Positions 25,445 through 44,893 of a DNA stretch of 44,893 nucleotides are shown here, one piece after another. Within the stretch, counting starts at the first letter, position 1, and each line of letters starts with the position of its first letter. A program made the translations under genes and the position numbers. Origin of the DNA: Chthoniobacterales bacterium (lineage in GTDB: Bacteria > Verrucomicrobiota > Verrucomicrobiia > Chthoniobacterales > Terrimicrobiaceae); NCBI GenBank assembly GCA_014879575.1, contig JACSRU010000093.1, positions 1-44,893 of the forward strand, written 5' to 3'. The notes under the pieces are model-generated. The model was not told the DNA's origin and searched no databases. It saw only the letters and a list, made by a program, of their open reading frames with translations.

Positions 25445-27178
25445 ATGAAGACAAGGCAGGCGCGAAAACGACGCATGAAAGCCTATTCTTATATTCGGTT
25501 CTCCACGCCCCAACAAGCCGAAGGAGACAGCCTGAGGCGGCAACTGGAAATCAGCGAAAAATACGCCGCCAAACACAATCTCGAAATCGACGATTCGCTG
25601 CGAATCACCGACCTTGGGAAATCAGCCTATACCGGGAAGCATCTGTCCGAAGGAGCCCTGGGGGCTTTTTTGAGGGCGGTTGAAGGCGGGAAGGTCGAGG
25701 CCGGAAGTTTCCTGCTTGTCGAATCCCTTGACCGGCTGAGCCGGGCGGCAGTGCCCAAGGCGCTGCGCCTGTTCCTGACCCTGCTGGAACACGGCATCCA
25801 GATTGTGACCCTTGCCGACGAACGGTGTTATTCGGAGGAATCCGCCAGCAAGGACATGACGGAGATGATCATCAGCATCGCCATCATGTCGCGGGCACAT
25901 GAGGAAAGTCAGAGAAAAGCCGAACGACTGGCGGCAGCCTGGGCCGAAAAGCGCCGGAATATCGCGGACGAGAAACTGACCAGCGTCTGCCCCCGGTGGC
26001 TGAAACTCAGTGAAGACCGCAAGAGCTACGAACTGATTCCCGAGAGAGCCAAGATCGTGCGAGAAATCTTTGACCTGACTATGCAAGGTGTGGGGAGAAG
26101 TGCCCTGGCCAAACGTCTCAATGCCCGGAACGAACCCGCCTGGACCAAAGGCAAGCGCCTCAAAGCTGGCTGGCATCATTCCTACATCGCCAAGATTCTC
26201 AGCAACCCCGCCGTCATAGGGCGATACCAATCCCACACCCACGACAAAAACGGGAAAAAGATCCCGGCAGGTGAAGTGATTGTGGATTATTTTCCTGCGG
26301 TCGTTGACGAGGCCTCGTATTACGCTCTGCTGGGACGATACCAGCCCCGCGGCCGATATGGCACTTCCCACCGGATAAACAACCTGTTCACCAACCTGAT
26401 CTTCGATGGCAAAACCGGCGATCCGGTCCGCTATGTGTGCGTAACCGACAAGAGGCGGGGCAAACCGTGGCGCACTCTCATGAGCGATGCCAAGAGGCTC
26501 AATCCCAAGGCAAAGGTCGTGGGGTGGTCCTACCCCCATTTCGAAGCAGCCTTTTTGAAGTTCATCACGGAGCTGGACTGGAAGCAGGTGGCCCAACAGG
26601 AGCAGAACACACTCCTACTTGAAAAACAGCGTGAGGCGATCATTCTTCAGGGCAGACTGGAGGAAATGGAGCAGCGACTGGAAAAGTTCGCGGAAGCCAT
26701 CGCCAGTTCCGAGGAAAAGCCCACTTTCCTGATTAAGAAAATCACCGAGACGGAAACCGAACAGAAAGCCCTTGGGGCTCGGCTTGTGGAGGTGAGCAAG
26801 GCGATTCGCAAATTGGATCGCGACGAACAAAGCCTTCGCGAGGACCAGCACAAAATCCGGCAACTGGTGGCCGAAAATGGAGAACACGAGGATCGGGATG
26901 TGCGCCTGCGGCTTCGGGAGGAAATCCGGCGCAAGGTCAAGAGCATCACGATCCACCCGGAACCAGCGGGAAGCAAAAGGCGTCCGTCTTTCGTGGTGAC
27001 CTTCGTAAATGGCTGCACGACCTGGGTTCGCACCAGTCCCGTGGCGATTGGCACCAAGGCCACCCTCCTCAATCGTGATCCTGACGTCCTCGGGATTCGC
27101 TTCCAGCCACCGGGTGACGCGCCGAGTCCGCTGGATGGGATGGTTACCGACCCCGACGATTGGGGAGACCAGGACTGA
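25445..27178 (+). CDS. Large serine recombinase
   Basis: 577 residues (567 if ATG at 25475 is used, which gives the family-typical start MKAYSYIRFSTPQQ). The resolvase domain (about residues 11-155) contains the nucleophile serine in RFSTPQQAEGDSLRRQ and LLVESLDRLSRAAV. A recombinase domain follows (about 175-300; YELIPERAKIVREIFDLT ... SYIAKILSNPAVIGRY). A long coiled coil spans about 385-485, as in large serine integrases, where it controls integration versus excision. The zinc-ribbon cysteines are not obvious. It probably moves the element that disrupted the TrbL-like gene. Confidence 0.92.
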   Translation: MKTRQARKRRMKAYSYIRFSTPQQAEGDSLRRQLEISEKYAAKHNLEIDDSLRITDLGKSAYTGKHLSEGALGAFLRAVEGGKVEAGSFLLVESLDRLSRAAVPKALRLFLTLLEHGIQIVTLADERCYSEESASKDMTEMIISIAIMSRAHEESQRKAERLAAAWAEKRRNIADEKLTSVCPRWLKLSEDRKSYELIPERAKIVREIFDLTMQGVGRSALAKRLNARNEPAWTKGKRLKAGWHHSYIAKILSNPAVIGRYQSHTHDKNGKKIPAGEVIVDYFPAVVDEASYYALLGRYQPRGRYGTSHRINNLFTNLIFDGKTGDPVRYVCVTDKRRGKPWRTLMSDAKRLNPKAKVVGWSYPHFEAAFLKFITELDWKQVAQQEQNTLLLEKQREAIILQGRLEEMEQRLEKFAEAIASSEEKPTFLIKKITETETEQKALGARLVEVSKAIRKLDRDEQSLREDQHKIRQLVAENGEHEDRDVRLRLREEIRRKVKSITIHPEPAGSKRRPSFVVTFVNGCTTWVRTSPVAIGTKATLLNRDPDVLGIRFQPPGDAPSPLDGMVTDPDDWGDQD

Positions 27179-28937: not shown

Positions 28938-31118
28938 ATGAAGAAATACGTCACCATCCGTGTTCAAAAGCTCCGCGATTGGGGCAACGGTTATGAGAAA
29001 ATGGAACGAAGAATCCGCAGAAAGAAGGGATTCAGTGAGTTCGTCACGAGAAAAATTCGAGGCGTTGAGGCTTCAATTGCTCACGTATTACGCAGAATCA
29101 TTACGCTCAACTCCGATCCAGAGCGCAGGAAAAGAATCACTATTTGTTGCAAAAAATCTGAGTGGAAACCGGTTCAACTGACGGCGAAAACAGCCAAAGA
29201 AATAGGAGCCGACAGTGCAGATTATGTGGTGAAGCTTGCCAAAGAAAGAATCTCCAAACTTGGTATCATCGATTCGAAAAAGGAGAGTTGCAAAGTGGTT
29301 GAGATGATTCTCACAGTCTCTCCGGAGTGGTTGCGCGATGGGGATGAGGAAAATCCAATTAATCCCGAAAAAGAAGCTGCATTCGTGAAATGCGCATTCA
29401 ATTTTCTGAGAGAAACGTACAAAGACAATTGTCTTTTTGCATGTGAACACCCCGACGAATTGAACACCCACGTTCACGCATATATTCTCCCTGCTGTTCT
29501 CAAAGTTCGGAAAAATGCGGGCAGGCCAAGAAAAAGGTCCATCGTTGTTCCGAAATCCAAACCTGTCGAAATCTGGGGGCTGAATTCAAAATCAATGTTC
29601 ACTCCGGACCATCGAATACAGGATCCATCGAAGGAAGGTGACTCAGCCGTTATTCGCTTGGCGCACTCAGGCACATGTTCACAGCTTCAACGGGATTTTG
29701 CACTCTACTGCCAGCAACATGGACTCGACGTAGAGCGCGGAATTGTGGGAAGCAGGGCTAAATACCAGGAAGTCTCCAAATACACACGCTTACTCCGCCA
29801 TGCTGCCATGCAGGAGGATGAGCTTGAAGAAATCATCGATATTGATCAACTGCGCACAGTCGCGCTGCAGAATTATCTCAAGGCAAAAGACCATGACCGG
29901 ATTGCATATGAGTTGAAGTTGCTACAAGAACAGGTGCTAGCGGAACAAAGACCCTTGCTGAAGGAACTTAACCAGTCTGCACTGAAGGTTATAAAGTTGC
30001 AGCATGATAACGATCAGCTAACCATTCAAATTGCGGCCAAAGCTCGTGCCGTTCCCGTCGGCGAATTGATTGAAAAACTTACAGGAGTTGAATCAAGGCC
30101 GGGAGCAAATCCGGGGAAATGTCTTTACGTCCTTCACTCCGGAATGCAGTTGGAAGTCGATGTGGCGACAAATAAATTTAAAAATCTGACTCCGGAAATT
30201 CCAGGACAGGGAAATATGTCGTCGAAGTCAGCAGGAAGGGGAGGAATCGACGCAGCGATATTTTTAACTGGCTGCAGCCCTGAGGCTGCACAAATCCTCA
30301 TTGTCGACCTGTTTTCAATTGATACTGCGGTGGCAACTATTTCCGAAGCTCTTCATTCAGCACCTAACACGCCTGAGCGGAAAATGCTTTCCGAGCATGC
30401 AATATCGGTTGCAAGCGAAGTCAGAAAACCCGACCCATCGAAGTGGCCGACCCTTCGCAATTACCTCGTCGGAACACTCGGATTGACCGAAAACATAATT
30501 GACAAGTTAAAACAGGACGGCTGGATACGTGCAAATAGGTATGGCCATTTGGTTGCAGAACGAAAAATTATCGATTCCAATGGAAAAATCCGGCCGTCAG
30601 GAAATTTCGTGCAGGATGTCACCCAGCCCATTACTGGCTATTATGCCGAGAACGGAATAGGATGCACAACAATTTCCGAGGCGAATGGGACGGAACCAAT
30701 TGTCATTGTTGATGATCCTCTCGAAGCTCTCTCCCTAGAGGCTCATTTTTCGAAATCGAATATGTCCAGAACCGTCTTCGCTATCGGGCGAAAACGCAAA
30801 CCCAAAACCGAAGAATTCCTTCGAATGCTTGGGAAAAAAACAAAAATATATTTCACAGAAATTCCAAGCGAAATTGGCAGAAAATTCGCGGAATGGGTGA
30901 GAAGGATTCTTCCGACCGCAAAAGAAATCGCACCGCCCAACGATCGACTTTCCTGGAGAGAATACCTCAGTGGCCTGAGCGACCGAAAGCCAGAGCACAC
31001 ACGAAAACTCCCTGTTGTCAATGAGCCTGCATTGGAGAACGAACGGGGCAAAAAAGCAGATGGAGCGCCAAAATGTCCCAGCATAAAAGAAATTGCGCCA
31101 GAAGACACCCAATCGTAA
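28938..31118 (+). CDS. MobV-type relaxase fused to DUF3991/TOPRIM-like domains
   Basis: 726 residues. The N-terminal relaxase region (about 1-290) has the MobV motifs in order: IRVQKLRDWGNGYEKMERRIRR near the start, VVEMILTVSPEWL around residue 120, and CEHPDELNTHVHAYILP around 167 (H-x-D-E-x3-H-x-H, metal-binding histidines). It is followed by LQRDFALYCQQHGLDVERGI. A helical linker spans about 290-390. Around residues 435-575 come GRGGIDAAIFL and PSKWPTLRNYLVGTLGLTENIIDKLKQDGWI, matching DUF3991, and then EPIVIVDDPLEALSLEAHF (about 585), a TOPRIM-like strand. It should nick at the oriT at 28650 and pilot the strand. Confidence 0.82.
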   Translation: MKKYVTIRVQKLRDWGNGYEKMERRIRRKKGFSEFVTRKIRGVEASIAHVLRRIITLNSDPERRKRITICCKKSEWKPVQLTAKTAKEIGADSADYVVKLAKERISKLGIIDSKKESCKVVEMILTVSPEWLRDGDEENPINPEKEAAFVKCAFNFLRETYKDNCLFACEHPDELNTHVHAYILPAVLKVRKNAGRPRKRSIVVPKSKPVEIWGLNSKSMFTPDHRIQDPSKEGDSAVIRLAHSGTCSQLQRDFALYCQQHGLDVERGIVGSRAKYQEVSKYTRLLRHAAMQEDELEEIIDIDQLRTVALQNYLKAKDHDRIAYELKLLQEQVLAEQRPLLKELNQSALKVIKLQHDNDQLTIQIAAKARAVPVGELIEKLTGVESRPGANPGKCLYVLHSGMQLEVDVATNKFKNLTPEIPGQGNMSSKSAGRGGIDAAIFLTGCSPEAAQILIVDLFSIDTAVATISEALHSAPNTPERKMLSEHAISVASEVRKPDPSKWPTLRNYLVGTLGLTENIIDKLKQDGWIRANRYGHLVAERKIIDSNGKIRPSGNFVQDVTQPITGYYAENGIGCTTISEANGTEPIVIVDDPLEALSLEAHFSKSNMSRTVFAIGRKRKPKTEEFLRMLGKKTKIYFTEIPSEIGRKFAEWVRRILPTAKEIAPPNDRLSWREYLSGLSDRKPEHTRKLPVVNEPALENERGKKADGAPKCPSIKEIAPEDTQS

Positions 31119-31667: not shown

Positions 31668-31916
31668 ATGAACACAGGCATCACAAGCATCATCGTTTTT
31701 ATCGTCCTCGGCATCGGATTTGCGCTCGCAATCACGGTCCTCTGGAATGCACTTGAAATCGCATATCGCAGCGTCATGGTGGTCATCTATTCCGTCGCGT
31801 ATGTAGCGATTTCCATCTGGGATATCGGCGTCTGGTTCCTCTTGCTGCCCGTTCGAATTGTCCGCTGGTTTCTGGGAGCGCAAAAATCCTCTGGGGAAGG
31901 AGCAATCAATGCGTAA
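31668..31916 (+). CDS. Small membrane protein, unknown
   Basis: 82 residues with two or three hydrophobic segments (GITSIIVFIVLGIGFALAITVLW, VMVVIYSVAYVAISIWDIGVWFLLLPV). ATG at 31668 is chosen because GAGGGA lies seven bases before it; an in-frame ATG at 31653 has no such site. It overlaps the next gene by eight bases and opens the operon of exported proteins. No family recognised. Confidence 0.6.
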   Translation: MNTGITSIIVFIVLGIGFALAITVLWNALEIAYRSVMVVIYSVAYVAISIWDIGVWFLLLPVRIVRWFLGAQKSSGEGAINA

Positions 31917-32508
31917 ATACCGAATAGCATTCACCGTCACTTTCCTGGCCCTCGCCTTTCGCATGGGAGCAATCGCCGGGGTGAATGAGGATTGGGAACA
32001 ATTTTACAAATGGGCAGGGCCATCGGTTACACCGGGACAAGCAAAACTGGCATGGAAATATAAAGTTAAGCTGATTTTCGACATTTTTGGAAAACTTGAA
32101 AATCAACACATGCCAGTCCGAACGACGGCTGATGGCAAAGCTTTTTGTGCAGTAGCTTGGTCTCATCTGGGCAAGGGCACACATTCTTGGACTGTCACCG
32201 ACCCCCCGACTCCGCTCTGGTATGTCCAACAGCAGGGAATTCGCCGGATCATCGAATCTTATCTTCGTAAAGCCAATTTGAAAATGACCAGACTGTATAT
32301 CGACGCGCTTGGGATCAAGTCCCACGGAAGTTATACATACGAATGGCGCGAAGGCGACTGCATTGTGAGATTGACAGAAGCGCCGGGAGTCCAAACCACC
32401 CTGAGCTTCTTTGACGTAACGGACATAAAAACGACCGACTTCAAACACCTGGAACACCCGATGACAGATACTAATATAAAAGATCCCGTGGCAGCCTACA
32501 GTAAATAA
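31909..32508 (+). CDS. Exported protein of unknown function
   Basis: 199 residues; MRKYRIAFTVTFLALAFRMGAIAG is a signal peptide. The mature part has an N-terminal helical region with several aromatic residues (NEDWEQFYKWAGPSVTPGQAKLAWKYKV) and a C-terminal beta-rich half (RLYIDALGIKSHGSYTYEWREGDCIVRLTE). AAGGAG precedes ATG 31909 at good distance, which decides the start over the longer frame. It is the second gene of the operon. No family recognised. Confidence 0.62.
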   Translation: MRKYRIAFTVTFLALAFRMGAIAGVNEDWEQFYKWAGPSVTPGQAKLAWKYKVKLIFDIFGKLENQHMPVRTTADGKAFCAVAWSHLGKGTHSWTVTDPPTPLWYVQQQGIRRIIESYLRKANLKMTRLYIDALGIKSHGSYTYEWREGDCIVRLTEAPGVQTTLSFFDVTDIKTTDFKHLEHPMTDTNIKDPVAAYSK

Positions 32509-32510
32509 CT

Positions 32511-33053
32511 ATGAAACTTCGTTTCCTTGTCCTGAGTGCGTTCTTAGGCGCTGTTTTGACGCTTCCTGTCTTTGGAGAGGATTATTATTCAAAAATTAAT
32601 CCAACTTGGCACGCCCTGATTGGCAAATGCGATTACACGCTCGCCGTGAACTCAATCGCCTCTGTGCTGCTGCAACAATATGTCCTCCAAGAAGACGACA
32701 AGCAGTTCGATGTCGTAGAACTCAACATCGAGACTGTTGCAGGGAGCAACACTAGAATATTCTATTCAAAAGAAAAAGGCCCGCAGGAAACCTCAAAATC
32801 CAGCGCCCCGGTAGAAGTTGGCGGTCTTAAGCTTTCTGTCGAGGAAATACAAAAGCAAGCGAAGGCAATGGCTGAATCGGGAAAGATTCCCGGTGAACCA
32901 AGTTCCACTGACCAGAAACAACCAAAAGACATTCTGCTTAAGAAAGGATCTGCAGGGACCTACGCAAAGCTCCTTGAACTTCAAGCCTCCTCCGAGGCTG
33001 AAGTTCGCAATCTCCACCAGTCGCTTCTCGAAAAATGGCTCCATCAAGATTGA
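32511..33053 (+). CDS. Exported protein of unknown function
   Basis: 180 residues with signal peptide MKLRFLVLSAFLGAVLTLPVFG. The mature protein starts EDYYSKINPTWHALIGKCDYTLAVNSIASVLLQQY and ends in a helical, charged part (YAKLLELQASSEAEVRNLHQSLLEKWLHQD) after a flexible Lys/Pro-rich linker. It starts two bases after the previous stop and overlaps the next gene by 19 bases, so it is co-translated. No family recognised; there is no counterpart visible in the second cassette at 41907. Confidence 0.6.
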   Translation: MKLRFLVLSAFLGAVLTLPVFGEDYYSKINPTWHALIGKCDYTLAVNSIASVLLQQYVLQEDDKQFDVVELNIETVAGSNTRIFYSKEKGPQETSKSSAPVEVGGLKLSVEEIQKQAKAMAESGKIPGEPSSTDQKQPKDILLKKGSAGTYAKLLELQASSEAEVRNLHQSLLEKWLHQD

Positions 33054-34882
33054 TCCTAATTACTTTGTTGTCAGGCACCGTTGTTTTTGGTCAACAGGCA
33101 GTGCCGCAAACCTCGGCTGCTCCGGCAGCGAGTGTCCCTGAAGGGACAACGCAGAAAGGCGTTGCCAATCCCGCATCAAAAGTTACCGGTGTTGATGAGG
33201 TTCCATTGCTTGATCCGGGATCGGAGACGATTTTTTGGGACGGAAAGACCTGGAGCATGGGGGATCAACGTGGACTTCAGGCGAGGTGGGAAAAGTTTCT
33301 TAACGAGCCGGAGGATGAAGTCGAGACTTATAGAGCATACAACGATCAGCTGACGGAAATCATCAATGTGCTTTCGGCAAGCTCCAACGCTCAAAGTTCC
33401 AGCGAAGCGACCGCACGGGCTTTTGCATTATTGCAGCAGGCCTCTCAATACCGTCCTGATGCGGGCCTTTGCCAGACTATTTCCAATCAGGTTGTGGCTG
33501 CTTGGCGGGGCTCAAAAAACGGAGCCGCCCTTGCCGCAGCAAACCGGGCATTGGAGAACGAGCGCAAGCGCGTCGAATGGAACAAACAAGTCACACTTCA
33601 GGCCAATTCGCTGGCGCAGTTTGGCAGGAATAGTTCGGATGGCTTGGCTGGCGAAAACAAAAAGGCCAAGCAGTTTCTCGAATCCACCGGATATGATAAA
33701 CGCCTGACTGAGATTGAAACGCAGCTCAAAGGCAATGACCTCAAAGGAGAACTGGTTATTGCCAAGAGAAAACTCGAATTTCAGGCGCTTATTGTTCAAT
33801 TGTTTTTCCAGCGACGGTTTCAGCACGCCATCATTGGCGTTCGCTTTTATAATTCTGTTTATGGCGACGGGGACAATGAATTGCAGTTGGGAGAAGATAC
33901 CAAGAATCTCTTTTCTCGAACTGCGGGAATGTCTCCTTCTTTATTCACGCTGGAATCCTTGGCACGTGAAACCATGGGTGATGTGCAAAAGGGCACGGAT
34001 GCTGCCATTTTCCTAATTCGACACAATGAAATGGCATCAGGCGCGAGACGCCTGATGGAATCATTCCTGCCGGGAGAATATGCGCCCGCAATTCGCACCT
34101 TGGAACGTGACACCAAACGGGAGGTGCTGTCATATGAGCGGAACCGCCTCAAACTTCTGGCAGCGGTTGAGACCAAAGACTACACGCTCATAGGTGAATT
34201 GCTTCCAGAAATTGCAAAAACAGCCAAGGATTTTGACGATACTAAATATCGTGGTCTCATCGAAACTGCAAAAGCTCAGGCCAATTTCCACATTGCCAAA
34301 GCGCAGGATGCTGCCGTGAATGGTGAACGGGCCAATGCGCAGGCGGAACTGCAGGCGGCCGGAGAAATATGGCCGCGCAATCCGGCTCTGGAAGAAGCAA
34401 GCAAGGCGTTGCTGTCTATTTCTTCTGGGCAAGGTAAGGCTCTCAAGGAACTCGATGATTTGCTCAAACAGCGAAACGACCGGGCTATTTATGATCAAAA
34501 GGAAAAGTTTATATCGGCTGTTGCATTTGCTCCTGACAGACAGGAGCCCACGAAGGCAGCGATTGAACGAATCGCTAAGGTAGAGGCCGTACTGGCGATG
34601 GCGCAAGAGATTGCCCGCACAGGCAATGCCGCTCTTGCATGGGAAAAGCTGGACAAGCTTCATCAGAAGTCCAAGGACGCGAAGGTATCGGAGCAGTTAG
34701 CCGATCTGTCCGCGAAGGCTTCAGAATACGTTTCAGCCTTGCGGGCGGCCGAGGCCGCAGCAACACAACAAAATATTGGCTCGGCTTTGGCACTTTACTT
34801 GCGAGCACAGGCTCTTGCCCCAGGTGCCGAAGTCCCGGTAGAGCAACTCGCGCAATTGAGCAAGCAGGCATTGGAGAAATAG
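33035..34882 (+). CDS. Secreted helical-repeat protein (cassette A, long component)
   Basis: 615 residues with signal peptide MAPSRLILITLLSGTVVFGQ, a flexible linker rich in Ala and Pro, then almost entirely helical sequence. Repeats of 30-40 residues resembling TPR units occur in the C-terminal half (KAQDAAVNGERANAQAELQAAGEIWPRNPALEEASKALL; LRAAEAAATQQNIGSALALYLRAQALAPGAEVPVEQLAQL). The protein is paralogous to 42352-44307: both share, in order, the 'KTAKDFDDTK / KTATDFDTTK', 'AAGEIWPRNPALEEA / AAAEAWPGNPDLQDK' and 'SAKASEYVSALRAAEA / SGRSAEFVSAINKARD' blocks. It is likely a periplasmic scaffold or adaptor; no enzyme motif is visible. Confidence 0.62.
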   Translation: MAPSRLILITLLSGTVVFGQQAVPQTSAAPAASVPEGTTQKGVANPASKVTGVDEVPLLDPGSETIFWDGKTWSMGDQRGLQARWEKFLNEPEDEVETYRAYNDQLTEIINVLSASSNAQSSSEATARAFALLQQASQYRPDAGLCQTISNQVVAAWRGSKNGAALAAANRALENERKRVEWNKQVTLQANSLAQFGRNSSDGLAGENKKAKQFLESTGYDKRLTEIETQLKGNDLKGELVIAKRKLEFQALIVQLFFQRRFQHAIIGVRFYNSVYGDGDNELQLGEDTKNLFSRTAGMSPSLFTLESLARETMGDVQKGTDAAIFLIRHNEMASGARRLMESFLPGEYAPAIRTLERDTKREVLSYERNRLKLLAAVETKDYTLIGELLPEIAKTAKDFDDTKYRGLIETAKAQANFHIAKAQDAAVNGERANAQAELQAAGEIWPRNPALEEASKALLSISSGQGKALKELDDLLKQRNDRAIYDQKEKFISAVAFAPDRQEPTKAAIERIAKVEAVLAMAQEIARTGNAALAWEKLDKLHQKSKDAKVSEQLADLSAKASEYVSALRAAEAAATQQNIGSALALYLRAQALAPGAEVPVEQLAQLSKQALEK

Positions 34883-34883
34883 T

Positions 34884-35270
34884 ATGTCACGTCGTTCAAA
34901 AAAGACCTCGAAAAGTTGGATTCTGCTCCTGGCGGGAGCCCTGTTTACCTCTGTCGCAGCCTATTTTGTGCTTGCGCATCTCGGAGCCCCCTACCGCACA
35001 CTGCAACCGCTGCCGGTCGCTGCATATGTGCAAAACTCGCTCTCTCTGCAAGGGAACACGTATCGACTGAGCGGACAGATTGAGAACCAAATGCTTTGGG
35101 ATAAGGGTTTCGGTCGTGTTGTGTCCATATTGACCAGCGAGGGGCTTGTGGCTGTTGTTTTCCCAAATACTGTGCGGGCAGACAATCTTCAGCGGGGGCA
35201 AAAGATTATTGCCCGTGCAGAAGTGGGCGATAAGGGAATCCTAAAAATAGAAGAATTCTCGAAAGAATAA
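34884..35270 (+). CDS. Membrane-anchored OB-fold-like protein (cassette A, short component)
   Basis: 128 residues: basic start MSRRSKKTSK, one membrane helix (SWILLLAGALFTSVAAYFVLA, about residues 11-31), then PYRTLQPLPVAAYVQ and a beta-rich domain (TYRLSGQIENQ ... AVVFPNTVRADNLQRGQKIIARAEVGDKGILKIEEFSKE). The strand pattern and the 'l..Gq.i.a...V...G.l.' end resemble small OB-folds. Nearly every block aligns with 41907-42377 (P[YL]RTLE/Q..PV..Y, the strand with 'ieN', and the 'kGq.....eV..gG.l' end). GGAGAAA supports the start. It follows the long component by one base. Confidence 0.62.
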   Translation: MSRRSKKTSKSWILLLAGALFTSVAAYFVLAHLGAPYRTLQPLPVAAYVQNSLSLQGNTYRLSGQIENQMLWDKGFGRVVSILTSEGLVAVVFPNTVRADNLQRGQKIIARAEVGDKGILKIEEFSKE

Positions 35271-35318
35271 TATCTGGAACTGTTGATTTGCGTATGCGAT
35301 ATGGTTCAGCAGTCCAAA

Positions 35319-35348
35319 GGGCGGCAGACAATAATCTGCCGCCCTTTT
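35319..35348 (+). terminator. Rho-independent terminator after cassette A
   Basis: Perfect 10-bp stem GGGCGGCAGA/TCTGCCGCCC (plus A-T pairs outside), loop caataa, followed by TTTT. It lies between the OB-fold-like gene and the AAA+ gene, whose ATG is only ten bases beyond it. Confidence 0.88.
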
Positions 35349-35358
35349 GTCATGTGCC

Positions 35359-36267
35359 ATGCACAGTCAGACAGATCCACTTATTTATAGTTACCAACGA
35401 CAGGTGTTCCACGAGTTGCATGAAACTCTCGCTGACTTTCGCTCCAAAGGCTGGGACGAATTGCCAATCCGTCCAAGGTGGCATCGCCTGGTCATCGGCG
35501 CGACCGGAACAGGAAAATCCCACCTTGCCAGGCTTGTTTCCAAGTCGGCCAATTTGCCTTTTTTGAGTCTCTCGGTAACGAGCTGGATTCTCATGGGGTG
35601 CAGCGACAGAGCCGGCGAACCAACATGGCAAACTATTCGATCATTTCTTGCGTCCAACAAGCGTGGCGTCATTTTTTTGGATGAAATAGACAAACTCGAT
35701 TCCAACCTAGCTTGGTTTCGATCTCTTAAGGTTGAAATATATGATCTTTTGGACGGGCGTATCCCGGAGGGTCTCCGCCATGAGGAAATCACCATGGATG
35801 ACTATGTTGTGGAGGAAAAATACGCAGGCATTTTCCTAACAGCTAGATTGCGAACGCAGTTCTGGATAGTCGCGGGTGGTGCCTTTCAAGATTTATGGGA
35901 TATGGGCGGAAATAGCATTGGTTTTGGCACACAGACAGCGCCGATTCCAACTTTTTCGATTTTGTCCCGACAACTGGACACGGAACTGGTGAATCGGTTT
36001 GGCGAAATCTTGGTTCTTCCGATGCCGCAGAGATCCGATTACGAGTGCATGCTTCAATCTGCCTGCGATATCCTCCCGCCACCAATGCGCCAGAATTTCC
36101 TTTCTGTCGGCACAAACATGCTCGACGAGGCAACAATCCAGCGCAAAGGTGCCCGCTTCGTTGAGGAAGTGCTCGCCAAAACAATCCGATCTTTGAGAAA
36201 AAGGCACTGCAAAAATCAGCCCATGCCTCTGGAGGAAATGTCCCGGCAGCGGTGCATCAGTCCGTGA
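35359..36267 (+). CDS. AAA+ ATPase (ClpX/Hsp100-like core)
   Basis: 302 residues. RLVIGATGTGKSHLARLVS (about residues 42-60) is Walker A, KRGVIFLDEIDKLDSN (about 98-113) is Walker B with sensor region, and LVNRFGEILVLPMPQ (about 207-221) supplies the arginine that in this group contacts ATP of the neighbouring subunit. An insertion around residues 120-190 separates Walker B from that arginine. The C-terminal helical lid is short and no partner-binding domain is seen. There is no Shine-Dalgarno at ATG 35359; TTG at 35347 is an alternative. It follows cassette A but beyond a terminator. Its role there (remodelling or secretion) is inference. Confidence 0.75.
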   Translation: MHSQTDPLIYSYQRQVFHELHETLADFRSKGWDELPIRPRWHRLVIGATGTGKSHLARLVSKSANLPFLSLSVTSWILMGCSDRAGEPTWQTIRSFLASNKRGVIFLDEIDKLDSNLAWFRSLKVEIYDLLDGRIPEGLRHEEITMDDYVVEEKYAGIFLTARLRTQFWIVAGGAFQDLWDMGGNSIGFGTQTAPIPTFSILSRQLDTELVNRFGEILVLPMPQRSDYECMLQSACDILPPPMRQNFLSVGTNMLDEATIQRKGARFVEEVLAKTIRSLRKRHCKNQPMPLEEMSRQRCISP

Positions 36268-38260: not shown

Positions 38261-39526
38261 GGTTCATCCGCAACGGGTGTGCATAGGGGTTGCATGGGAG
38301 GGTAGAGTATGAGGGATGGAAGCCACATTTTTGAAGCGGGCCTTCGGGATTGGAGAAGGCTGGGAGTATGGAAGCACGAAGTATGTCGGAGCCACGGTGG
38401 AGTTCCACATCAAGGCGAAGCGGGAGGGCATTCGGTGTCCGAAATGCGAAGCCGACCACATCGCCCTGCGCGGGACGCGAGAGCGACGGATTCGAACCGT
38501 GCCAATCGGCTTCAAGCCGGTGACCATCGTGGCGCATGTGCCGCGATGCCAGTGCCGCAAGTGCGGGGAGTTTTTCGACTCCTCCCCCCTTTTGCCGCCC
38601 GAGGGCGATCCTGCACTCATAGCCTTGAACGATTCGTTGCAGGACTCTGCCGAATGATGAGCCTGAAGGATGCGGCGAGCCTGGCGGGAGTGGGATGGGA
38701 CACGGTCAAACGCATCTTCAAAAGCGACATGGCCAAGGAAGCCGCCCGAGCCAACCTCAAGGAGGTGAAGTTCCTGGCAATCGACGAGTTGTATCTGGGG
38801 CGCTTGCACAAGTTCATCACCATCGTCATCGACTGGCAGAGCGGACGGGTGCTCTATGTCGCCAAGGGACGGGGAGAGAATGCCCTGCGGCCCTTTTTCC
38901 GTAAGCTGCGGCGGGCCAAAGCCGACATCAAGGCGGTTGCCACCGACTTGAGCGCCGCGTATGCGGCAGCCGTGATCAAGAACCTTCCCGGAGCCCTGCC
39001 AGTAGCCGACCGCTTTCACATCATCAAGCTCATGAACGAGAAGATCGACGAATTGCGCCGGGCGATTCAGCGCGAGGCCGGAATCATGGGGCGCAGCGCC
39101 ATCAAGGGCACCCGCTACCTCCTGCTACGCGGACGGGAAAACCTCGCGCCCGAGCGGCTGCCGGATCTGGAGGAGGCTCTGAAGCTCAACAAGCCGCTTT
39201 CCATCGCCTACTACCTCAAGGAGGAACTGCGAACGCTCTGGAGTTTTCATGACATCGGCCATATGACCGCCTTCTTTGACGACTGGTGCCGTCGGGCCGC
39301 AGAGGCTGGAATCCCGCTGCTGGCTTCCTTCGCCAAAACCCTGCGTGGATTTCGCTCCGCGATTCTCAACGGATGGGTCTACGGCATCTCCAACGGGAAA
39401 CTCGAAGGCATCAACAACAAGATCGGTGCCATGCAGCGCATGCACTATGGTCTTCGTGACTTTCATTTCCTATCCCTCCGAATCCTCACACTTCACCGGG
39501 CTAAACACATTTTTTGCGGATGAACC
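38261..39526 (+). mobile_element. ISL3-family insertion sequence, 1266 bp
   Basis: The ends are inverted repeats: 38261 onward reads GGTTCATCCGCAA then, after four unmatched bases, TGTG; the complement of 39506-39526 reads the same 13-mer, four unmatched bases, TGTG (17 of 21 match). The element is flanked by perfect 8-bp duplications and holds one transposase gene that almost fills it. Perfect duplications indicate a recent insertion. It landed on the stop codon of the helicase-associated-domain gene, which the duplication restores. Confidence 0.92.
38316..39523 (+). pseudogene. ISL3-family transposase with a -1 frameshift
   Basis: Frame 1 from ATG 38316 encodes the zinc-binding N-terminus (IRCPKCEADHIALRG ... 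CQCRKCGEFFDSS), and a second frame from about 38590 to 39523 encodes SLERFVAGLCRMMSLKDAASLAGVGWDTVK and the DDE domain: FLAIDELYLG, AVATDLSAAY and GKLEGINNKIGAMQRM. The frames join without loss at a run of six C bases (38584-38589): one extra C, or a -1 slip, gives a continuous DSSPPFAARGRSCTHS. It may be a decayed gene, an assembly error, or programmed frameshifting. Otherwise it has full family length (about 400 residues). Confidence 0.88.
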
Positions 39527-39534
39527 CAATTTCA
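39527..39534 (+). repeat. Target-site duplication, right copy
   Basis: caatttca, identical to 38253-38260; its last three bases are the stop codon (TGA on the minus strand) of the gene ending at 39532. Confidence 0.9.
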
Positions 39535-41682
39535 CCGCACTCTCCAGACAAATCCGATGGCATCAAGCTTTGCCTTGCGGTCAGAATCGATTTTCCCAAC
39601 CCGGAGCTGCCTCCGCTGGCTGAATACCCACATGCCAAGATGCTTGAGGGGTGGCGCATGAACGGGAACCGCGCAGTGGCCATGAAGGGCTTTGTACCGT
39701 TTCAATTCCTCGTAGCGGATGTCCCAAAGCTTGTTCCGCGACAGCCAGCGGAAGCCGATCTGGTCGAGCCAATTCGCCCGGTAAGGTGCGAGGACTCCAC
39801 GATCCTGCCTGTGGCGTTGCGTGATGCACCATCTCGCCAACGCTTCGGGATCGTCTGCCGGCAGGCGGCCTCTCGAATTCCGGTGCTCCTCCAGTTTGGC
39901 AAAATGGCCGATCCAGTCGTTGTCGCGCTTGTCCCCAAAATCGAAACCCAAGGCGGCAAGACGGATGATCTGTTCCGCGTGCAGGTAATCTCTGGAACGG
40001 TTGATCGCACCGCAGGCGGCCACAGGGACCGCGTTTTCCTCAAGATCATCCAATTCCGGACAGCGACCGTGCTGGGCGTGGAACTCTGCCACGCACTCGA
40101 TGGCGGCGGAAAGCTCTTCGACGGGTTCGGATGTTCGCGGTTCATAACTCCACTCGAAGCCAAGGCCGTCCAAGCGGCTTGTCCGTTCGGACGACAGCAC
40201 CCCGTCAAGCTTGGCCCGGCGCTGGCGCGTGGTCCATTTGAAGAGCTTGGGTTCGGACCAGTCCTCGGGAACCCGGCAATGGCCGTAGAGGAGCCGGAAC
40301 CGGGCGAGCTTTCCAAGCATGGTTTCCCAGACTTCATCTTTGTAATTCCACGGAAAATTGAGGGCATTGAGCCGGGCTTTGCGCTCCGGGGACAGCTCGC
40401 CACGATGGCGCAGGCGTTTTTGAAACGAATACCAGGCGTGGAGTTGCGGATTCCCTTTCAAGCTCTTCGGAATATGGCAATGCCCATGCTGTTGCCGGTA
40501 GGCAACCATCTCGGCATAGTGTTTCTCCCAATGGTCGTTGCGGGGCTCCCAAAGGAATCCGGTTTCCTCGAGACGCTGGATATACTCAGTCGAAAGTTCT
40601 CCCCTTCGCTTTCGTATCCGCTGGGCAGTGGCCCAAGAGCCAAGGCTGGCAAAGTTTCCATTCGAGGAGATTTCCGGTGATCCATGCTCCCTGACGTATT
40701 TTTTCCATTCTTCAAACCTCTCTTCCCACTCCAGGTGTTCGCGACCGGTGAAACACCCCAATTCCTCCAGGCGTCTTTTTCTTTCCGGTGTCAATCGTTC
40801 AGTTCGATTGCGCTGTTTGGCCAGCCACCGGCCCAATTCTGGATTTTCCGCCCAACCGTAGGGCACCAGGGCGTTTCCGAAACGGGCATGGTAAGCGAGC
40901 AGTCCGGAAAAATGCCTCTCCCACGAAGCGTCCCTCACGTCCCAAATGAACCCAATTTCCTGCAACAGGCGCACCCGGCGCCGAACAAGCCTTCCCTTGT
41001 TGTGCCACGAGCGTTGGATGCCCACCCAATTTCTCAAGGGTGTGTTATTGTCCCAGATCGTCACATCGTTGGCATCTCCCAACCGCTCCTTGCCTTCCAA
41101 AAGTTTGAAGAAATTAAAGAACCAGCGGTTTTCCGAACCGGCGAATCGGACGCCGAGATCCCACAGGCGGCGGATTTGAGAGAGCGTCAGTTTTTCAAAC
41201 TTGGTTTTCTGAACAGAAAGCCAGCCCGGAAGCTTGGGGGAAGGCGGATAGGGACGGGAAACCCGCAGATGCCCGTGCCGGTCCCGAAAGCGGGCCAGTT
41301 CGTCAAAATGAAATTCCCATTCCGGGCCTTCGGAAATGAAATCCACCGTCTGATCGGAATGAGCCTCAAGCGCGGTCACGCCCCAATTAAAAAGGACTTT
41401 GTCGAGCAGCGCCTTTTGCCCGCTGTCCATAAGTCCCATTTCGAGCCTCTTCCGTTGGTAGCGCAGCCAGTCGAAAAGGGGGTTCTCCTGCGGAAACTTC
41501 AGGTGCCCGTGTCCGGCGCGAAAACGAACGACCTCCTCGTAGCGGGCCATCCATCTGCGATTTCGAACATCGTTCACAGGGGTTTCAATGCCACGCCAAT
41601 GCCGAGATTTCCAGATTTCCTTGCCTGCGCGTTGGACTCCCCTCTTCTTCACCTTGAAATTCAGCGGCGTTTTGGCCTCCAT
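39532..41682 (-). CDS. Protein of about ten tandem helicase-associated domains
   Basis: 716 residues consisting almost wholly of repeats of 60-70 residues. Each has a leading W, a 'L..+...hG...vP' core, 'L..W...QR......L...r...L..LGF.W'. Clear examples are YAEMVAYRQQHGHCHIPKSL with HAWYSFQKRLRHRGELSPER, and KLARFRLLYGHCRVP with FKWTTRQR. Ten units can be counted; the third and eighth are the most diverged. This is the helicase-associated domain (PF03457), normally C-terminal to a DEAD/SNF2-type helicase, but no Walker motif is present here, so it is a stand-alone repeat protein. ATG 41682, preceded by GGAGAAG, is preferred to TTG 41925. Likely role: nucleic-acid binding. Confidence 0.82.
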   Translation of the reverse strand: MEAKTPLNFKVKKRGVQRAGKEIWKSRHWRGIETPVNDVRNRRWMARYEEVVRFRAGHGHLKFPQENPLFDWLRYQRKRLEMGLMDSGQKALLDKVLFNWGVTALEAHSDQTVDFISEGPEWEFHFDELARFRDRHGHLRVSRPYPPSPKLPGWLSVQKTKFEKLTLSQIRRLWDLGVRFAGSENRWFFNFFKLLEGKERLGDANDVTIWDNNTPLRNWVGIQRSWHNKGRLVRRRVRLLQEIGFIWDVRDASWERHFSGLLAYHARFGNALVPYGWAENPELGRWLAKQRNRTERLTPERKRRLEELGCFTGREHLEWEERFEEWKKYVREHGSPEISSNGNFASLGSWATAQRIRKRRGELSTEYIQRLEETGFLWEPRNDHWEKHYAEMVAYRQQHGHCHIPKSLKGNPQLHAWYSFQKRLRHRGELSPERKARLNALNFPWNYKDEVWETMLGKLARFRLLYGHCRVPEDWSEPKLFKWTTRQRRAKLDGVLSSERTSRLDGLGFEWSYEPRTSEPVEELSAAIECVAEFHAQHGRCPELDDLEENAVPVAACGAINRSRDYLHAEQIIRLAALGFDFGDKRDNDWIGHFAKLEEHRNSRGRLPADDPEALARWCITQRHRQDRGVLAPYRANWLDQIGFRWLSRNKLWDIRYEELKRYKALHGHCAVPVHAPPLKHLGMWVFSQRRQLRVGKIDSDRKAKLDAIGFVWRVR

Positions 41683-41906
41683 CTTCTCCGATGCAGGCCA
41701 GCCAATCCAGGGAGACCGCACGCCGCAAAAATCCCGAGATCCGTCTCTTCCCTTCACACTTCCCTTCAACAATTGCCAGCCGCCGGGCCTGCCTTTAGCG
41801 TTCCATACCGTGACGGGATTTTCCCGGAATGAAAATCCACTTTTGAGCGTTCGTTCGTGTGCTCTTTTCTTGAAGTTGCCCCGAATCCCATCCAGTATTT
41901 CCCGCA

Positions 41907-42377
41907 ATGCAGGCACACCAACCAAATGACCCCGGAGAAAATCCGATCATATCTCCATTTTCAGATGCGGAGAGCCCTGTTTTACAGAAGCGGCGCAAGA
42001 GCCATGTTGCGCTGTGGGTTTCTCTCGGCGTTGTTCTCTGTCTGGTTTTGGCAGTCGGAGGTTTTTTCCTCACCCGCTATCTGAACGATCCGCTTCGCAC
42101 ACTGGAGGCATTCCCCGTCGGGAAATATCTGGAGAGCTACAAGGCGCTGGCCGGTTCGAAATTCCGGGGCACACTCCGGGTGGAAAATGATCTTGGCTGG
42201 AAAGAGGGCTCAGGCCGCCTCATGGTTTTTTCACTCCGAGACAATCCCCATCCCATCGTGGTGATGATTCCGCCGAGTCTCGCACAGATTTATTTCACCA
42301 AGGGTCAGACTTACGAGGGAGAACTTGAAGTCAAAGAAGGAGGATTGATTTATGCGAATTCCATTCGGAAAAACTAG
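41907..42377 (+). CDS. Membrane-anchored OB-fold-like protein (cassette B, short component)
   Basis: 156 residues: a hydrophilic N-terminus of about 30 residues, one membrane helix (HVALWVSLGVVLCLVLAVGGFFLT, about residues 33-56), then DPLRTLEAFPVGKYLES and a beta-rich domain ending KGQTYEGELEVKEGGLIYANSI. It is the paralogue of 34884-35270 with the same topology and ordered sequence blocks; its N-terminal part is longer. It is divergent from the helicase-associated-domain gene and overlaps the next gene by 26 bases. Confidence 0.62.
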   Translation: MQAHQPNDPGENPIISPFSDAESPVLQKRRKSHVALWVSLGVVLCLVLAVGGFFLTRYLNDPLRTLEAFPVGKYLESYKALAGSKFRGTLRVENDLGWKEGSGRLMVFSLRDNPHPIVVMIPPSLAQIYFTKGQTYEGELEVKEGGLIYANSIRKN

Positions 42378-44307
42378 CGCGGCAATCGTCGTCGCCGGTT
42401 CCATTGCCTTGGCGCAGGAACCACCCCAACAGCCCCAAGGCGGGACAACAGAAACTCCCACTGTTCCCACAAAACCCGAGAACGCTGCCAATCCTGCGAA
42501 CTCCCCCACTCCCGCGAAAGGGAATGGAAGCGACATGTCTTCTGCTCTGGACTACCTCATGAATCGCAAGCCGCAGGATGGTTCAATGGGCAAGCAGGCC
42601 TTTGATTCTGGAAAGCGGGGCGAAACCAAGGCTATCGCCGATGACGCCGTAGGCAGTCATCGGAACGAGGATCAGGAAATGCGTGCCCGCTTTGAACGCT
42701 ATCTCAGCATGGCTCCAGTTCCCCAGGAAACGCTCAATGAGTATTTCACGAAGATGAAGCAGGTTTCCACCCTGCTTCGTGACAAACAGATTTTCCCGGC
42801 ATGGAAGCAGCTCCATGAATTGGCCGACTATACCATGATTGATGCGGGAATCAGCAGGGAGCTTGCCAATCGGGTTGAGTCCATTTGGAACACCGACAAG
42901 GCATCGGCTGGCATTGATCGCAAAAATGAGGCCATCCGCAAGGACGTAAAAACTTCCAACCGGAATGCTGACATGATGTCCGAGCAGATCATGGATGACG
43001 AGATTGAGTATCAGCGGAAACTCAATCAGGGGAACAGGCAGAAGCAGCAGGGCCAACAAACCAATCAAACAAATGGGGGAGTCCCCCAGATGCCGCAGGA
43101 TGGAGGGAATGCGCCCCAACCCAGCGTGGCCGGACTGGAAGGCAAGCTTCAACTCACGGAGGAATATCTTCGCTCGTTGGAACTCAAAGCCAGGATCAAG
43201 CTCAATGAGTTGAAACAGGAAAAGTTGCTGGAACAGGCGAAGACAAATTTTTCCGAATACATTTCCGCCTTATACAACAGCGGTCGGTTGAACCATGTCG
43301 TCCTTGCCGCTGATTTTTACCGCAAGATTTTTGAGGAAGCGGAATATCCGGTTGATATGGCAAAGCAGGTGAATGCCTCCTTGGAAATCCAACGGGATGT
43401 TCAAAGTGCCATTGAGGTATTCCGCTACAAGGCGGATCGCGGACAGCTTTCCGGAGCGAGCGACAGCCTGCAAACGGCGTTCATGACAAACGAACTCAGT
43501 GCTGCCGTTCTTGGCTTGGAACGCCCGTTGAAAGAGAAAGTGGCGGACTTCAACGCCAGTCTCGACCAGATGCGGAACCTCATTGAGGCACGTGACTTTG
43601 GCAACCTGGAGATCCTGCTTCAAAACGTCAAAAAGACCGCCACAGACTTCGACACCACAAAACCGATGGCCATTGTCAACGGTGTGAAGCTGGAAAGCAA
43701 AATGCGCTTGGGCAAGGCGAAACTCGCTGCCCAGCAAGGCGACTTGAAACTTGCGATGGAGGAATTTCAGGCGGCGGCGGAAGCGTGGCCAGGCAATCCT
43801 GATTTACAGGACAAGGCGCTGACATTCTTCGATACCCAGGACATGAAGTCTCAGGCACTGGTGGAATTTGACAGGTTGGTGGAAGAGCAAAACTACCGTG
43901 CAATTTTTGACAAGCAGCTTGGGTTTGCCCCCGCCATCAAAGGAGATGCCAAGCGCGAGGAGGCCCTGAGAACGGCGTTGCTGTCCATCAAGGATGCGGA
44001 GATGGCTTCGGAAAAAGCCAATGTCCTGATGCTGAACGGGGACTTTTTTGGCGCATGGGAAACCATCGAACTCGCCAGCACCAAACTCCCCGACGACAAA
44101 AAACTGAACAAACTCAGGGCCGATCTTTCCGGTCGCAGTGCGGAATTCGTTTCTGCCATCAACAAGGCAAGAGATGCCGAGGGACGGAATGAGATTGGTT
44201 TCAGCATCACTTGGTTTGTCAATGCCCAGCGGCAATATCCCGCCAGCCAGATTGCGAACGAGGGCATTGAGCGTCTGAGCAAGAAATTGCTGGAAGCCAA
44301 AATGTAA
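42352..44307 (+). CDS. Secreted helical-repeat protein (cassette B, long component)
   Basis: 651 residues with an N-terminal signal (IPFGKTSAAIVVAGSIALAQ), a Pro/Thr/Asn-rich linker to about residue 60, and a helical body with a glutamine-rich loop around 230-255 (NRQKQQGQQTNQTNGG). The C-terminal 300 residues align in order with 33035-34882 (LERPLKEKVADFNASLDQMRNLIEARDFGNLEILLQNVKKTATDFDTTK is the best block). AGGAGG seven bases before ATG 42352 fixes the start. It lies between the short component and an ABC ATPase, so an envelope transport role is plausible. Confidence 0.65.
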   Translation: MRIPFGKTSAAIVVAGSIALAQEPPQQPQGGTTETPTVPTKPENAANPANSPTPAKGNGSDMSSALDYLMNRKPQDGSMGKQAFDSGKRGETKAIADDAVGSHRNEDQEMRARFERYLSMAPVPQETLNEYFTKMKQVSTLLRDKQIFPAWKQLHELADYTMIDAGISRELANRVESIWNTDKASAGIDRKNEAIRKDVKTSNRNADMMSEQIMDDEIEYQRKLNQGNRQKQQGQQTNQTNGGVPQMPQDGGNAPQPSVAGLEGKLQLTEEYLRSLELKARIKLNELKQEKLLEQAKTNFSEYISALYNSGRLNHVVLAADFYRKIFEEAEYPVDMAKQVNASLEIQRDVQSAIEVFRYKADRGQLSGASDSLQTAFMTNELSAAVLGLERPLKEKVADFNASLDQMRNLIEARDFGNLEILLQNVKKTATDFDTTKPMAIVNGVKLESKMRLGKAKLAAQQGDLKLAMEEFQAAAEAWPGNPDLQDKALTFFDTQDMKSQALVEFDRLVEEQNYRAIFDKQLGFAPAIKGDAKREEALRTALLSIKDAEMASEKANVLMLNGDFFGAWETIELASTKLPDDKKLNKLRADLSGRSAEFVSAINKARDAEGRNEIGFSITWFVNAQRQYPASQIANEGIERLSKKLLEAKM

Positions 44308-44327
44308 CTGGGAATGAGTCTGACCAC

Positions 44328-44893
44328 ATGGCCAGCGCGATCAGTGTTCACAATCTTTCGGTGACTGTCAGGGAGAAGCGTCAAATCAAGACGCTTCTCG
44401 CCAATGTCAATTTTTGGATTGAGAGAGGGCGGTTTGTCGCGGTCATTGGGGCATCGGGCTGCGGGAAGAGCACCCTGATCAAATCAATGGCGGGATTGAT
44501 TCAGCCATCAGCCGGCCAAATTCTTTTTGCGGGACAGTCCGTGCAAGATTTGAATGACCATCTCCCGCTCGCCGTTGGCTACCTCCCTCAGTTTGGGGCG
44601 TTTCATGAGAAACTGACCGTGGGGGAAAATCTTTCCACGGCATCTGCATTGCGTCTCCCGCGAAAAGTCACAGGGGAACGGCGGCAGGCATGGATGCACC
44701 ACATTACAGAATTGGCCCGTATTGATCCCCTGCTTCCCCAGGAATACCGGACCCTTTCCGGTGGACAAATGCGTCGGATGGCCCTTGCAGAGGAATTGAT
44801 TGGAGATCCCGCATTCCTCCTGCTCGACGAGTTGACCAGTGGGCTCGATCCGTTTTCCGAACTGGAAATGATGGCATGGTTGCGGGATCTGGC
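44328..44893 (+). CDS. ABC transporter ATP-binding protein (partial, runs off the window)
   Basis: The first 188 residues are present and the gene is cut by the window end. Walker A is VIGASGCGKSTLI (about residues 40-52), Q-loop YLPQFGAF (about 85-92), signature YRTLSGGQMRRMALAEELI (about 144-162), Walker B FLLLDELTSGLD (about 168-179). The order and spacing are canonical, and the signature/Walker B sequence resembles ATPases of ABCG/ABC-2-type exporters. No membrane domain has begun by the edge. It starts 20 bases after cassette B's long component, so it is probably in the same operon. Confidence 0.9.
   Translation, partial: MASAISVHNLSVTVREKRQIKTLLANVNFWIERGRFVAVIGASGCGKSTLIKSMAGLIQPSAGQILFAGQSVQDLNDHLPLAVGYLPQFGAFHEKLTVGENLSTASALRLPRKVTGERRQAWMHHITELARIDPLLPQEYRTLSGGQMRRMALAEELIGDPAFLLLDELTSGLDPFSELEMMAWLRDL

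Follow-up and report, generated by a model that had tools for sequence, protein, structure and literature searches.

An ABCG-type half-transporter gene and its co-inheritance with two uncharacterised envelope proteins across sampled Verrucomicrobiota

In this study we analysed a 44,893-nucleotide stretch of a Chthoniobacterales genome (the window), at the right end of which lies the 5΄ part of an ABC transporter gene. Our results show that, in the Verrucomicrobiota genomes sampled, this ABCG gene is co-inherited with the genes of two envelope proteins that have not been characterised, one of them a membrane-anchored OB-fold protein and the other a secreted, probably TPR-like protein. We consider it likely that the ABCG-type half-transporter (a presumed homodimer), the anchored periplasmic OB protein and the secreted protein form a functional unit.

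Because the window is an entire contig (G000:C157, 1–44893), its right edge is the end of that contig. An ATG at 44328 on the plus strand opens a frame of 188 codons that runs without a stop to the last base (44328–44893), as the initial annotation had stated; the start given there, 44308, directly follows the stop of the upstream gene and precedes this ATG by 20 nt. The fragment encodes the ATPase through the D-loop and matches Pfam ABC_tran with an E-value of 6.9e-30 and 104.9 bits (cut-off 25), so the reading frame is not due to chance. Walker A (GASGCGKS, residues 41–48), the signature (LSGGQ, 143), Walker B (FLLLDE, 163) and the D-loop (172) lie in the window, and for these the claim that all ATPase motifs are intact holds; the H-loop is absent from the window because the contig stops before it, and is found intact (TH, residues 200–201) on the side of contig C142, the motif set being complete in the joined gene described below. 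Among the NCBIfam models, TIGR00955 comes first by E-value for the window fragment (108.0 bits), practically tied with CydD (108.3 bits), and ranks second for the full-length paralog on contig C62 (125 bits). Since both scores stay below the family cut-off of 736, the label ABCG-type is used here for the architecture, and the gene is not filed under TIGR00955. No Pfam match to an FHA domain was obtained with the fragment or with the C62 paralog. A role as a defence gene was rejected, since the PADLOC matches (the best being mad3, with E 1.5e-19 in the fragment and 2.9e-24 in C62) are attributed to the shared ATPase domain; the OB and TPR proteins gave no PADLOC match.

A permease had been predicted past position 44893, and extension to the right leads to one, fused to the ATPase. 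When the 3΄ part of the C62 paralog was searched against its own genome, it matched the terminal part of contig C142 in minus orientation (L021:18807–19934), where the ABC gene continues. In the alignment to the C62 gene the window corresponds to positions 1–566 and the C142 end to positions 568–1698, with one base missing between them. The junction flanks are identical to C62 over 41 and 44 bases, and the contig break would be explained by the position of the junction in an 86-bp stretch, missing base included, that is otherwise identical to C62. For the same reason the pairing of the C157 and C142 ends is formally ambiguous, as the ends could pair otherwise; whichever way they pair, a fused permease results. 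The joined gene encodes a single chain of 564 residues, an N-terminal ATPase followed by a permease with six transmembrane helices predicted from hydropathy (303–321, 356–374, 404–422, 440–458, 469–487 and 535–553), which is the arrangement of an ABC-2/ABCG half-transporter and agrees with the type proposed initially for the ATPase. In the C62 paralog both ABC_tran and ABC2_membrane score above the Pfam cut-offs, the value for PF01061 (54.5 bits, cut-off 26.9) being that of this paralog. A stand-alone ATPase with a separate permease was rejected, since the continuation and the paralogs are fused. Mean column identity is 74% in a permease alignment of 20 sequences, and the permease profile had no match at E 0.1 among solved structures (PDB).

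The genome holds four other full-length paralogs, three of 564 residues (C62, C142 and C171) and one of 584 (C54). A tree built from 39 ABCG proteins unites C62, C142a and the joined window gene with L026 and L036 (LR76) at full support, while C171 is placed further out and C54 falls in the other clade. The comparison of the window gene with C62 gave a dN/dS of 0.05 (dS 0.70, dN 0.036), and the window gene is under purifying selection; on this value, a decaying copy was rejected.

Upstream of the ABC gene and on the same strand lie the genes of the OB protein (41907–42377, 156 aa) and of the TPR-like protein (42352–44307, 651 aa). These two share 26 nt and the ABC gene begins 20 nt past the TPR stop, so that the three genes form an apparent operon. 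A scan of 41500–44893 found no promoter, and eight terminator-like sites against 4.9 expected. Neither partner reaches the cut-off of any Pfam or NCBIfam model, and sequence searches gave no relative of solved structure for either (best E-values 0.011 and 0.9). In its AlphaFold model (pLDDT 78.7) the OB protein consists of a disordered N-terminal tail, which contains an SPF motif in most members of an 18-sequence alignment, a transmembrane helix at 34–59 and a five-stranded OB barrel at 85–155. When the model was compared with the PDB, the top 50 matches listed were OB folds, with Z 9.4–10.7 and rmsd 1.9–3.2 over 80–96 residues. This layout of one transmembrane helix and a periplasmic OB barrel is shared by CcmE, which in the CcmABCDE complex (8ce8) is the best Foldseek match of the model (E 1.3e-3), and the unit could be imagined as a similar complex, in which ATP would not serve the export of a solute but the release or loading of the OB protein in its membrane-anchored state. 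However, this match has a TM-score of 0.36 and an rmsd of 7.9, the next six Foldseek matches, which are other OB-containing proteins, have E-values within a factor of two of it, and CcmE is absent from the 50 PDB matches listed. Furthermore, CcmE binds haem through a conserved His, and no invariant or nearly invariant His occurs in the 18 aligned OB sequences. We regard such a complex as very unlikely.

The TPR-like protein has, by eye, a signal-peptide-like N-terminus, and it matches TPR_16 and TPR_14 below the Pfam cut-offs. Its AlphaFold model is all-alpha (pLDDT 75.9, pTM 0.48), with long helices predicted at 167–227 and 259–310 and a disordered loop between them. The best Foldseek matches of this model are TPR proteins, with an E-value of 1.8e-4 but a TM-score of 0.11, and the predicted alpha-helical fold is probably TPR-like, a weak fold call. 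The family alignment comprises 21 sequences. A three-component unit with a periplasmic OB barrel recalls a tripartite efflux pump or a type 1-like secretion pump, in which the OB or the repeat protein would be the adaptor and the outer-membrane channel would be encoded elsewhere, and the two long helices of the TPR-like model might form the hairpin of such an adaptor. HlyD-type adaptors carry lipoyl domains, but these were not recognised in the partners, neither of which has a Pfam or NCBIfam match to membrane-fusion proteins or outer-membrane factors, and the OB model lacks a coiled-coil hairpin. A pump of this kind seems to us unlikely. The tripartite-like export unit of the initial annotation is supported as to the OB and repeat genes, which do belong with the transporter, and not supported as to a tripartite character in the usual sense; one partner is modelled as a short anchored barrel and the other as an all-alpha protein.

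The linkage of the OB-fold and secreted-repeat genes to the ABC gene, noted initially from their position, is also seen as co-occurrence across the sampled genomes. When a collection of 84,980 species was scanned with the ABCG protein, 203 relatives were obtained, and the best 80 of these 203 were analysed: 77 are labelled Verrucomicrobiota and three (L035, L040 and L041) are labelled as other phyla. These three group within the verrucomicrobial proteins in the tree and their genomes carry the TPR gene; they may be mislabelled as to phylum. The TPR gene is present at 20 and the OB gene at 16 of 23 cassette-type loci (L026–L047 and L096). At four of the seven without OB the contig begins inside or just before the TPR gene, and L028, L030 and L031 lack both partners. 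Fifty-seven more distant loci (L048–L105 without L096) were chosen by the ABCG protein alone; in the stretches covered, some of them short, both partners are present at 31, OB only at two and neither at 24. The loci L108–L120, picked by a TPR match, were left out of this count, and L116–L118 were dropped for having no permease, which was present at 67 of the 70 loci given. The order ABCG-OB-TPR on one strand is found at 29 of the 31 loci with both partners (exceptions L048 and L061); in the cassettes it is mostly OB-TPR-ABCG, except at L043, where the TPR gene lies downstream, past other genes.

The same association was seen in a sample of 387 genomes of the phylum, where the TPR profile was found in 66 genomes (E 1e-10) and the permease profile in 67 (E 1e-30), with at most three candidates per genome scored in one of the scans, so that copies may be missed. 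All 66 TPR-positive genomes have the permease as well, and a single genome, G125, has the permease alone (Fisher p 2e-74, uncorrected for shared descent). The two genes lie no more than 5 kb apart in 56 of the 66; in the remaining ten they are 11–14 kb apart on one contig (three genomes) or on different contigs (seven). The two profiles mark the same lineages, as they would if the ABCG protein were a stand-alone exporter that travels with the OB and TPR genes through descent and linkage only. Unlinked or missing partners do occur: in the genome of the window there are six OB-TPR pairs and five permeases, incompletely paired, the C171 ABCG gene has neither OB nor TPR beside it, and the ABCG gene of C54 does not share a contig with the OB-TPR pair of C77. 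Against this explanation, the ten genomes in which the genes lie beyond 5 kb still keep both, the set is retained despite rearranged gene order, and a distant plasmid copy (see below) retains all three genes; we find it quite unlikely. The results support instead that the OB and TPR-like genes belong to the same unit as the ABCG gene.

The window copy belongs to a kind of cassette present in several copies. Gene families were clustered by single linkage over 28 loci or stretches, and the locus counts include the four that come from the same genome besides the window; one cluster (EST/ABH) mixes families and spurious frames. The families shared by the cassettes were O-antigen-ligase (11), YD/RHS-like secreted (10), rhodanese (9) and MauE proteins (9), and hydrolase-like proteins were also recurrent. 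Pfam supports the O-antigen-ligase family (Wzy_C), MauE and rhodanese; the two hydrolase-like proteins have no Pfam match, and one of them has a weak NCBIfam match to PHA depolymerase. Small cysteine-rich secreted proteins lie beside some cassettes, and in one relative a 1857-residue RHS-repeat protein (E 2.2e-85) adjoins a short YD-like protein. An AsmA-like gene cluster neighbours five cassette-type loci (L033, L037, L039, L040 and L042), one of the five AsmA-like proteins scoring above the TamB cut-off, three matching DUF748 below cut-off and one having no match. The window copy is a specialised version, and its cassette neighbours suggest that it may help to mature or display secreted proteins encoded nearby.

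A plasmid, CP007054 of Opitutaceae bacterium TAV5, typed as mobilizable, carries the unit in the order OB, TPR, ABCG. The rhodanese, O-antigen-ligase, hydrolase-like, MauE, YD-like and DUF1573 proteins all have relatives within the same 37.6 kb of this plasmid. CP007054 is the sole match of the TPR protein among 72,556 plasmid records, and the unit is annotated there only as 'ABC transporter' and 'hypothetical protein'. A phage origin was rejected, the TPR protein having no match in 50,697 phage records.

Several other features were observed near the cassettes. One hydrolase-like protein (L007:9621–11954, L021:15706–17973) has an N-terminal GYF_2-like stretch, scoring 20.3 bits in the C62 copy (cut-off 25.8), and we speculate that it could bind proline-rich tails in the transporter set. 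CC motifs occur in two proteins that look secreted (L009:5448–6185 and L022:529–1416), the former with a sub-threshold match to galaxin repeats (E 0.0054). The stretch upstream of the C142 cassette (L008:2316–4747) encodes a VirD4/TraG-like coupling protein together with an AAA protein that is ClpB-like, and relatives are found about 9–11 kb from the C171 ABCG gene.

In the window itself, the unit described above (cassette B) is preceded by a second cassette (A, 31858–36267, plus strand), which has no ABCG gene and carries diverged homologs of the two partners: a TPR-like protein at 33035–34882 (24% identity to that of cassette B, E 8e-45) and an OB protein at 34884–35270 (27% identity, E 7e-16), both on the plus strand. 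These are related to the cassette B unit and not part of it. Cassette A also encodes two proteins that look secreted by eye and have no family match, as well as an AAA ATPase; a 38% relative of the latter lies close to a cassette of LR76 (L043). Upstream of it, on the plus strand, are a serine recombinase (25445–27178) and a MobV-type relaxase (28938–31118; Mob_Pre, E 1.8e-11, with MobV plasmid relatives), and the G+C content is 0.50 in cassette A versus 0.59 in the first 25 kb; the region of relaxase, recombinase and cassette A may be an integrated mobilisable element. An ISL3-family transposase (38309–39523, plus strand) lies between cassettes A and B. The protein encoded at 39532–41925 on the minus strand, divergent from the OB gene, matches the helicase-associated (HA) domain nine times (E 1.7e-115).

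What could the unit do in the cell? We propose that the ABCG protein, presumably as a dimer of identical subunits in the inner membrane, would use ATP hydrolysis to drive an envelope-destined molecule outward, and that the OB and TPR-like proteins would receive this molecule, pass it onward or gate the transporter from the periplasmic side. It is from the architecture that we infer export and not some other ABC-2 activity. As to the substrate, a lipid or lipid-linked glycan is a tentative first guess, because of the ABCG architecture and of the AsmA-like neighbours, the latter being the main, weak hint. Going further, it is conceivable, if somewhat doubtful, that ABCG, OB and TPR-like proteins constitute a machine for envelope transport in Verrucomicrobiota that has not been described before, with a low-copy form and a mobile, multi-copy one, and that the mobile cassette, with its two hydrolase-like proteins, O-antigen-ligase-family, rhodanese, MauE and DUF1573 proteins, matures and displays surface proteins encoded locally, RHS-like and cysteine-rich ones. 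Should the unit prove real, a conserved transporter of the phylum gains two partner families and a testable composition, and the cassette version ties it to secreted and envelope-modifying proteins that recur as a set, in several copies in one genome.

No description of the ABCG-OB-TPR set or of its cassette was found in the open-licence literature searched. In PMC3482391 the single mention of ABC transporters concerns bacteriocin leader peptidases. With the ABCG/White type (TIGR00955, PF01061) our protein shares a single chain in which the ATPase precedes an ABC-2 permease of six helices; here, in contrast, two periplasmic partners accompany it and the permease profile has no match to a solved structure at E 0.1. 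According to PMC3908365 and PMC5549992, Rv1747 of Mycobacterium tuberculosis is a bacterial ABC transporter thought to be an exporter, with FHA domains and a link to a kinase; our protein differs in that FHA matches are absent from the window fragment and C62. The CcmABCDE system likewise combines an ABC module with a membrane-anchored periplasmic OB protein, the fold match being weak, whereas here ATPase and permease are fused, a TPR-like secreted partner is present and the OB protein has no conserved His. With ABC tripartite efflux and type 1 secretion systems, as outlined in PMC8277102, it has in common an ABC motor with one or more periplasmic partners, but no membrane-fusion protein or outer-membrane channel is recognised among those partners. 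The motor is of a known kind, and what did not turn up in the literature searched is the combination of this motor with two partner families and with the cassette that surrounds them.
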